DNA of 64,000 nucleotides from Halogranum rubrum (GTDB lineage Archaea; Halobacteriota; Halobacteria; Halobacteriales; Haloferacaceae): contig NZ_FOTC01000003.1 in assembly GCF_900114455.1 (NCBI RefSeq), forward strand, positions 308,124 to 372,123. Direction: 5' to 3'. Position 1 is the first letter of the stretch. Each line of letters starts with the position of its first letter. Positions 11,912-55,647 of the stretch are shown piece by piece. The notes below the pieces were generated by a model, which ran no database searches, was not told the origin of the DNA, and saw nothing but the letters and a program-made list of their open reading frames with translations. A program made the translations under genes and the position numbers.

Positions 11912-12106
11912 ATGGCCAAGATAAGTGTCGAAATACCCGACGAACTCCTCGCCGACTTAGACGAGCACGTCGGTGAAGGTGGAAAGTTCGTAAACCGGAG
12001 TGACGCCATCCGTGCGTCTGTCCGAAAGACGTTGGACCTCCTCGACGAGATAGACGAGCGGCATGGACGACTGGAAGCGCGGAATCGAAACGCTGACGAT
12101 GAGTGA
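11912..12106 (+). CDS. Ribbon-helix-helix (CopG/MetJ type) regulator
   Basis: 64 residues. It begins MAKISVEIPDELLADLDEHV, continues with FVNRSDAIRASVRKTLDLLD, and ends with a charged tail. This is a complete ribbon-helix-helix fold: a beta strand that enters the DNA major groove and two helices for dimerisation. The stop overlaps the start of the YhhQ-type transporter by 8 bp, so the two are probably co-translated. It may repress its own operon in response to a 7-deazaguanine precursor; the ligand is speculation. An antitoxin is less likely, as the partner is a transporter. Confidence 0.85.
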   Translation: MAKISVEIPDELLADLDEHVGEGGKFVNRSDAIRASVRKTLDLLDEIDERHGRLEARNRNADDE

Positions 12107-12809
12107 CAGAATGCGAGAGCCATCGCTGGCTCCTATCGCACTCGTCGCGCTCTTCGTCACCGCGCTGGTGACCGCGCAACTGGTCTCCTCGAAGCTTCTC
12201 GCCCTCACAATCCCCGTCGTCGGTATCGCACTCACCGCACCCGGTGGAACCCTCGCGTACGCGGCGACGTACTTCGCCTCCGACTGTATCTCCGAACTCT
12301 ACGGTGAAGCGTTCGCGCGCCGCGTCGTCAACGTCGGCTTCGTGATGAACTTCGTGATGCTGGCACTCGTCTTTCTCACCATCCAGATTCCGGCCGCCCA
12401 GGGCAGCCCTGTCGACCCGAGTCAGTTCGCGACCGTCTTAGGGTCGGGTGCGAACATCGTCCTCGGGTCGTCGCTGGCCTACCTCGTCAGCCAGAACTGG
12501 GACGTCGTCGTCTTCCATCGGATTCGTGAGGCGACCGACGGGTCGATGCTCTGGCTCAGAAACGTCGGTTCGACGGCGACGAGCCAACTGCTCGATACAG
12601 TGATCTTCACCGTCGTCGCCTTCGCCGTCGCACCCGTCGTCTTGGGCACTGGCCAGCCACTCCCGACGAGCGTCGTCGTGAGCCTCGTCGTCGGCCAGTA
12701 CCTCCTCAAACTGCTCATCGCGCTGTTCGACACCCCGTTCGTCTACGCGACGGTCAGCGCACTTCGCTCGGACGGCCACGAGCAGACGAGTGTGACGGCG
12801 AGCGACTAA
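12099..12809 (+). CDS. Queuosine/archaeosine precursor transporter, YhhQ family
   Basis: About 236 residues from the ATG at 12099, which overlaps the RHH stop; an ATG at 12063 in frame and one at 12111 are alternatives. Six membrane segments, with the family segment YFASDCISELYGEAFARRVV in loop 1, then NVGSTATSQLLDTVIFTVVAF and the end GQYLLKLLIALFDTPFVYA. In bacteria YhhQ (COG1738) imports preQ0/preQ1. In an archaeon, salvage of preQ0 would feed archaeosine at position 15 of tRNA. Placement directly after a regulator suggests controlled salvage. Confidence 0.88.
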   Translation: MSDRMREPSLAPIALVALFVTALVTAQLVSSKLLALTIPVVGIALTAPGGTLAYAATYFASDCISELYGEAFARRVVNVGFVMNFVMLALVFLTIQIPAAQGSPVDPSQFATVLGSGANIVLGSSLAYLVSQNWDVVVFHRIREATDGSMLWLRNVGSTATSQLLDTVIFTVVAFAVAPVVLGTGQPLPTSVVVSLVVGQYLLKLLIALFDTPFVYATVSALRSDGHEQTSVTASD

Positions 12810-55303: not shown

Positions 55304-55372
55304 GTCGTCACCGGATACGAGTGCGGGAAGGACTTTGAACACGCTCCGCTCGTCACGTTCGTTCCTCGCAGA

Positions 55373-55430
55373 AGCGAGCACGATGGGAGTCCCGCGAGCG
55401 AACGCAGTGAGCGAGTGGGACTACATCGTG
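55373..55430. repeat. Degenerate copy of the tRNA-Arg 3' flank within an inverted repeat
   Basis: AGCGAGCACGATGGGA (55373-55388) is identical to the 3' end region of the tRNA gene at 55571-55586 and is preceded by similar sequence (TCGTTC...GCAGA). From 55379 CACGATG pairs with CATCGTG at 55424-55430 and AGTCCC with GGGACT inside it, giving an imperfect hairpin. Confidence 0.55.
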
Positions 55431-55459
55431 CGAGAGAAGTCGAGTGAAACGAGACTGAA

Positions 55460-55534
55460 CGAGCACGATGGGATTTGAACCACGCCCGAGAACCTGCGCT
55501 TTCAGCGCAGAACCTCGGTCTCATACCAATCCCA
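55460..55534 (-). pseudogene. tRNA-like hairpin with partial tRNA-Arg 3' end
   Basis: The first 22 nt (55460-55481) equal the 3' end of the tRNA-Arg gene, then one base is missing in the T-stem. Instead of the rest of that tRNA, the minus strand has a long hairpin: TGGGATT/AATCCCA (55528-55534 with 55469-55475), CCGAG/CTCGG and CTGCG/CGCAG around a 7-nt loop CTGAAAG, which looks like an anticodon loop with GAA. It lacks a proper D-arm and T-arm, so I read it as a tRNA-derived remnant rather than a working tRNA. Confidence 0.5.
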
Positions 55535-55572
55535 TGGCTGTCGCTTCCTGCTCACTGTCGTTCGCAGAGAAG

Positions 55573-55647
55573 CGAGCACGATGGGATTTGAACCCACGGC
55601 CGTCGGATTAGAAGTCCGACGCTCTATCCAGACTGAGCTACGTGCCC
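55573..55647 (-). tRNA. tRNA-Arg (anticodon UCU)
   Basis: 75 nt on the minus strand. The acceptor GGGCACG pairs with CGTGCTC (one G-U), D-arm GCTC/GAGC, anticodon arm TCGGA-CTTCTAA-TCCGA with anticodon TCT, T-arm GTGGG-TTCAAAT-CCCAT, discriminator G. CCA is not encoded. No intron. It decodes AGA. It lies between the HAD phosphatase and the UPF0200 gene, and its 3' end is partly duplicated twice just downstream. Confidence 0.93.

Follow-up and report, generated by a model that had tools for sequence, protein, structure and literature searches.

The trailer of tRNA-Arg(TCT) in the window, by which we mean the whole stretch of 64,000 nt of Halogranum DNA that was analysed, is made up of two hairpin repeats that lie side by side, both members of a family found across the haloarchaea in which each unit repeats the 3' end of the tRNA it follows; that such a family exists can be considered established with high confidence. 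The locus follows a direct-inverted-direct-inverted-direct layout (Table 1). The recurrence of the last 22 nt of the tRNA gene at 55460-55481, reported in an earlier note on this DNA, is an exact match lying far above chance, since D and D' stand 113 bp apart and the expected number of exact 22-mers in 300 nt is 8.6e-11. The further copy that the same note described as 3' flank is likewise a true repeat, but the label was wrong: read directly, 55371-55388 comprises 14 nt of the tRNA itself (nt 60-73) and ~4-5 nt of flank. The hairpin is also borne out, as the minus strand of 55455-55545 has a predicted fold of -41.7 kcal/mol (z = -4.5) that none of 200 shuffles equalled. What had been overlooked is that the 5' arm of this hairpin is an inverted copy of the T-arm, here shorter than in most family members, and that the third copy has an inverted partner of its own at 55417-55431. 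Together the latter two form a palindrome, separated from D' by a linker, whose type-2 design is also found at Halobellus, Halogeometricum and Haloferax loci. As a separate observation, the spacer contains at 55549-55564 (minus strand) a version, GCGAACGACAGTGAGC, of a GCGAACGAAGTGAGC motif that is recurrent in many trailers, where it could fold into a small hairpin containing tandem G.A pairs and capped by a GAA- or GACA-type loop.

Table 1. Positions of the repeat units behind tRNA-Arg(TCT) in the window, and of the integrative element in tRNA-Lys(CTT) in coordinates of locus L353 (G000:C14:112500-121000)
Feature	Position	Strand	Remarks
tRNA-Arg(TCT) gene, anticodon UCU	55573-55647	minus	ARAGORN (its call: 55572-55647); Rfam RF00005, 70.3 bits
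First copy D, tRNA-Arg(TCT) nt 52-73	55573-55594	minus	inside the tRNA gene
Spacer, including a short hairpin (GCGAACGACAGTGAGC)	55537-55572	minus	95% identity to Halogranum genome G002
Inverted arm I (CATGGGATT)	55528-55536	minus	complement of T-stem 3' strand and part of T-loop
Core hairpin, family F2	55482-55527	minus	motif ACCGAGGTTCTG..CAGGTTCTCGG at 55486-55519
Second copy D', tRNA nt 52-73	55460-55481	minus	exact 22/22; last nt is the discriminator base; TTCAGTCTC comes next
Inverted arm I' of the second, type-2 unit (GCACGATGTAGTCCC)	55417-55431	minus	complement of acceptor 3' strand
Third copy D'', tRNA nt 60-73	55375-55388	minus	3' arm of type-2 hairpin/palindrome 55378-55431
Integrative element in tRNA-Lys(CTT), ~7.3 kb	L353 290-7592		
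Tyrosine integrase ORF, 401 aa	L353 6454-7659		in the tRNA-Lys(CTT) element
ATPase-like ORF	L353 1110-2480		in the tRNA-Lys(CTT) element

To determine the extent of the family, the 3'-flanking DNA of tRNA genes was collected from the Halogranum genome of the window (G000), a second Halogranum genome (G002) and a genome from one other haloarchaeal family (G057), all surveyed through Rfam tRNA matches, a unit being counted where the 3' end of a tRNA recurred, with a score of at least 13/23, within 300 nt downstream of it. Such copies follow 29 of 70, 26 of 50 and 15 of 44 tRNA genes, respectively, against 6, 3 and 1 matches in the upstream control, which are mostly tandem tRNAs; after subtraction of the real tandem tRNAs, 26, 23 and 15 units are left. 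In these three fully surveyed genomes, the share of tRNA genes with a unit is roughly one third to one half. In all 64 units the tail of the unit's own tRNA is the best fit among the tails of that set, and units stand behind tRNAs of most isotypes. No unit was found at 35 tRNAs of three non-haloarchaeal relatives. Searches were also made with core patterns, which make no reference to the tRNA. Pattern alone detects the F2 core, the one seen in the window, in 71 of 295 Halobacteriales genomes; each of the 30 F2 loci inspected follows a tRNA and continues into a copy of the 3' end of that same tRNA. The F1 core (TTYRAATCAGGGA..GACCGTGGTTYRAA) occurs in 122 of the 295, and in none of the 124 genomes of the same phylum listed outside Halobacteriales; reversed-pattern controls gave zero matches. 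Among the fetched loci, 59 of 62 core matches lie 32-330 nt downstream of a same-strand tRNA and end in its 3' end, and the other three have no tRNA called nearby, one being apparently at a contig edge and one having a tRNA-Thr-like tail upstream. At the tRNA-Arg(TCT) loci of named haloarchaea, a unit is detectable in 35 of 69, occasionally as two or three in tandem. One tRNA-Arg(TCT) gene, in another genome (locus L026, G025:C2, ~1501-1627), is split by an intron-like insert of ~28 nt and is missed by ARAGORN when run without its intron search.

A unit runs from the tRNA 3' end through a spacer hairpin, an inverted arm (typically the complement of T-loop and T-stem), a core hairpin and a copy of tRNA nt 53-73 into T-rich DNA, and its size is roughly 65-200 nt, with neither integrase nor cargo. 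Across 73 units, D and D' agree at ~0.97 over nt 53-71 and 0.92-0.93 at nt 72-73, as opposed to ~0.25 at nt 49-51 and 0.56 at +1, dropping to ~0.3; as the units were picked by a score over nt 52-73, the high interior is partly a product of selection, which does not hold for the sharp borders. The DNA after either copy is rich in T (~0.6 at the first two positions). The cores fall into several families, which are common to different tRNAs and genera. The stems of F1 covary: 98% of the cells are paired, and 38 both-side changes compare with 12 in shuffles, none of 500 of which reached the observed value, and with 1-10 in slid controls. In F2 the apical stems vary on both sides and the apical loop is variable. 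Also conserved in F1 cores, and always on the tRNA strand, are a bulged G, a T.G pair that never varies and tandem mismatches of the G.A kind; G.A outnumber T.C mismatches by 210 to 4, and the sense strand gives the better fold in 77 of 99 units. Outside nt 53, where the pair is invariant, the mismatches in the arms comprise 47 G.U and 39 A.C with no significant asymmetry, and hence the arms show no sign of RNA-specific selection. We also observed that the long spacers behind tRNA-Ser(CGA), Val, Asp, Met and Ala in the two Halogranum genomes resemble a second structured domain, with a stem, an internal loop (e.g. GACTCACAC / ACTGCTGTGA) and an inner hairpin, the stem letters of which differ between species yet stay complementary.

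Comparison of close relatives reveals that the gain or loss of units is precise. A 121-bp unit present in Halorientalis persicus is absent from H. pallida, with the remaining flanks 96% identical and the joint located inside the duplicated tRNA end, and Halorubrum displays empty, one-unit and two-unit states; empty and filled sites of this kind were found at tRNA ends only, and insertion and precise deletion would leave them looking alike. Cores at the same tRNA differ in sister species. At tRNA-Arg(TCT), the core has been exchanged between the window genome (F2) and G002 (F1), and on either side of it, in the spacer and downstream of the copy, identity is 95%. A stretch of flank has been duplicated along with the tRNA end in two cases, exactly and over ~33-34 nt in Halorussus ruber, and over ~33 nt at tRNA-Glu(TTC) in the window genome. 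Several core-pattern matches form evenly spaced tandem copies, and some of the tRNA-end copies have decayed. Concerted evolution of the cores within a genome was considered and rejected: 28 of 35 units looked closer in their core to that of another tRNA in the same genome than to the ortholog, but only 26 of 46 were once sample sizes had been equalised, at which point homogenisation is weak (0.765 vs 0.735).

Our favoured explanation, to which we would give not quite an even chance, sees the unit as a small non-coding repeat whose gain, loss and reshuffling are the work of recombination. Copying or repair would switch onto the resident tRNA at short T-arm homology, the core ending in GGTTCRAATC, a T-arm sequence common to all tRNAs; it would then copy the resident 3' end and run on into the flank, so that each new copy thereby acquires the resident tRNA's own end and the tRNA is left intact. 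Recombination between both copies could afterwards delete or amplify the unit. Such a process is consistent with the invariable fit of each copy to its own tRNA, the D/D' identity over nt 53-73 with its edges at nt 51 and +1, the position of the tRNA-independent pattern matches, the precise presence and absence in Halorientalis and the similar Halorubrum case, the core replacement in Halogranum, the core families common to different tRNAs and genera with their evenly spaced tandem copies, the co-duplicated flanks, and the lack of a G.U excess in the arms. Against it, neither a transposition event nor an enzyme was seen, and deletion alone could account for presence and absence; simple copying leaves unexplained why the inverted arm, too, is specific in part to its tRNA; DNA recombination should be blind to the mature 3' end, yet nt 73 is where the copy stops; and the within-genome homogenisation is weak. 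The covarying stems and conserved internal core features further suggest selection on the folded strand. Because the core keeps defined non-Watson-Crick features, the folded sense strand, be it trailer RNA or single-stranded DNA, is probably recognised by something. A rival reading, which we find doubtful yet quite possible, is that of a cis-acting trailer RNA: the unit would be co-transcribed with its tRNA, its inverted arm would pair with the second copy to leave the tRNA 3' end as tail, and by analogy with the RtT repeats of E. coli, which have the same plan, it might serve in termination, in RNase Z processing or as a competing 3' end. Besides the covariation, the G.A bias and the better sense fold, the location of units always on the tRNA strand, the end of the copy at the discriminator and the T-rich DNA after both copies speak for it; its patchy distribution, with losses in sister species that leave the tRNA unharmed, the unlike cores at the same tRNA in sister species and the lack of a G.U excess in the arms speak against it.

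The remaining explanations are less probable. The units might be a neutral by-product without function or spread, generated by local slippage duplication of the tRNA 3' end and held alike by gene conversion from the tRNA in these polyploid cells; the flanks co-duplicated in apparently young units and the decayed copies would fit, but core families conserved across dozens of genera and many tRNAs are left unexplained, as is the covariation, and we deem this improbable. The scar of past integrations proposed by the earlier note is treated here as refuted for this locus and retains hardly any likelihood. Duplicated tRNA 3' ends are indeed a product of integrative elements, and the window genome has five Pfam Phage_integrase matches (one below cut-off), of which none is at the window's tRNA-Arg(TCT) and one adjoins the sole unit located far from its tRNA, tRNA-Lys(CTT). 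There, the element parts the tRNA from its displaced 3' end (nt 58-73), a spacer hairpin and an F1 unit, whereas in G002 a matching spacer and unit directly follow tRNA-Lys(CTT) without interruption; moreover, the block that the element duplicated is nt 58-73 only, and lacks the inverted arm. By this comparison, the element inserted upstream of a pre-existing unit, and the units are not integrase scars. Behind many tRNAs in many genera no integrase lies between the copies, the hairpin design is conserved, and its occurrence in distant haloarchaea is essentially without any integrase-linked variant. A virus-carried element was similarly rejected, as the core motifs gave a single match in 2.9 million viral contigs, and the one match in two viral scans is an ordinary unit behind tRNA-Glu. 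The likelihood that the hairpin is a degenerate second tRNA, or a tRNA-Phe-like gene, is negligible. Its stem does carry a 7-nt CTGAAAG loop, in which the earlier note saw a resemblance to a tRNA-Phe anticodon loop. This resemblance is coincidental: the apical loop varies freely among genomes (relatives have GAA, TTC, GGA, CGAA and others). Moreover, what forms the 5' arm is a T-arm in inverted orientation and not a tRNA 5' end, and ARAGORN and Rfam give no tRNA call at this place. The suggestion of a tRNA-derived small RNA gene holds insofar as a structured sequence is built around a tRNA 3' end in the trailer, its RNA product being putative. Also discarded were a tRNA intron with the copy as alternative 3' exon, since the junctions are direct repeats and a bulge-helix-bulge is impossible, and a kink-turn for the tandem G.A motif, since the 3-nt bulge is absent.

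Two further tRNA loci attracted our attention in their own right. L072 (G000:C13:158311-166451) holds more than 12 low-scoring tRNA genes in a dense one-strand array that looks virus- or plasmid-borne, and no trailer units were seen in it. In L354 (G000:C9:8000-21500), positions 12026-12768 contain a tRNA-Asn, a second tRNA-Asn with a 32-nt intron-like insert and a tRNA-Met; the row adjoins a tyrosine integrase, and both tRNA-Asn have exactly the same 3' end.

The closest known counterpart is found in the RtT repeats of the tyrT/tyrV tRNA-Tyr operon of E. coli (RF00391, gene rttR), which, to our knowledge, are known for one operon. In NC_000913, copies of tRNA nt 58-73 plus CCA recur with a 178-nt period, each after an inverted copy, GGGGAAGGAT; the predicted fold pairs this arm with the tRNA-end copy and leaves the 3' end as tail, and the spacer sequence is repeated after each copy. 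Like RtT, the haloarchaeal unit lies downstream of a tRNA whose 3' end is repeated at its close, and this repeat is predicted to pair with the inverted arm; unlike RtT, it stands behind most isotypes and has several core families, whereas the E. coli unit is longer and includes an annotated small ORF (tpr). The RF00391 model, which as a control recovers all E. coli copies, has no match in the window or in seven unit-bearing loci. The two thus follow the same plan with no detectable relation in sequence, and we do not claim a common family. Conceivably, though we think it somewhat unlikely, the units form a class of hairpin elements able to pass from one tRNA gene to another: they would dock on the T-arm sequence that all tRNAs share and copy the host tRNA 3' end, never damaging the host gene. 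The plan would then have arisen independently in bacteria (RtT) and in haloarchaea, which would point to a general process at tRNA 3' ends. With the attL/attR sites of integrative elements the units share direct copies of a tRNA 3' end, but they differ in their small size, their inverted arm and conserved hairpin, and in having no integrase or cargo. The palindrome-associated elements (PATE) and small mobile repeats (SMR) of Haloquadratum are short palindromic non-coding repeats with no transposase gene, and in the available part of their description they are said to lack target duplications and are given no link to tRNAs (PMC3119063); as far as that part goes, they differ from the present units, nearly all of which stand behind a tRNA and repeat its end. 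A literature search, mostly of papers accessible without subscription, returned no prior description of such units in archaea, and as far as we found the arrangement had previously been documented only behind one E. coli tRNA operon.

What has been a curiosity of E. coli has a counterpart across an order of archaea. Repeats of tRNA ends in haloarchaea should not be taken for integration scars; they provide instead a large comparative data set on tRNA 3' ends that bears on trailer function, replication-transcription conflict and gene conversion. Transcription of the trailer would mean that in many haloarchaeal pre-tRNAs the 3' end is present in two versions.
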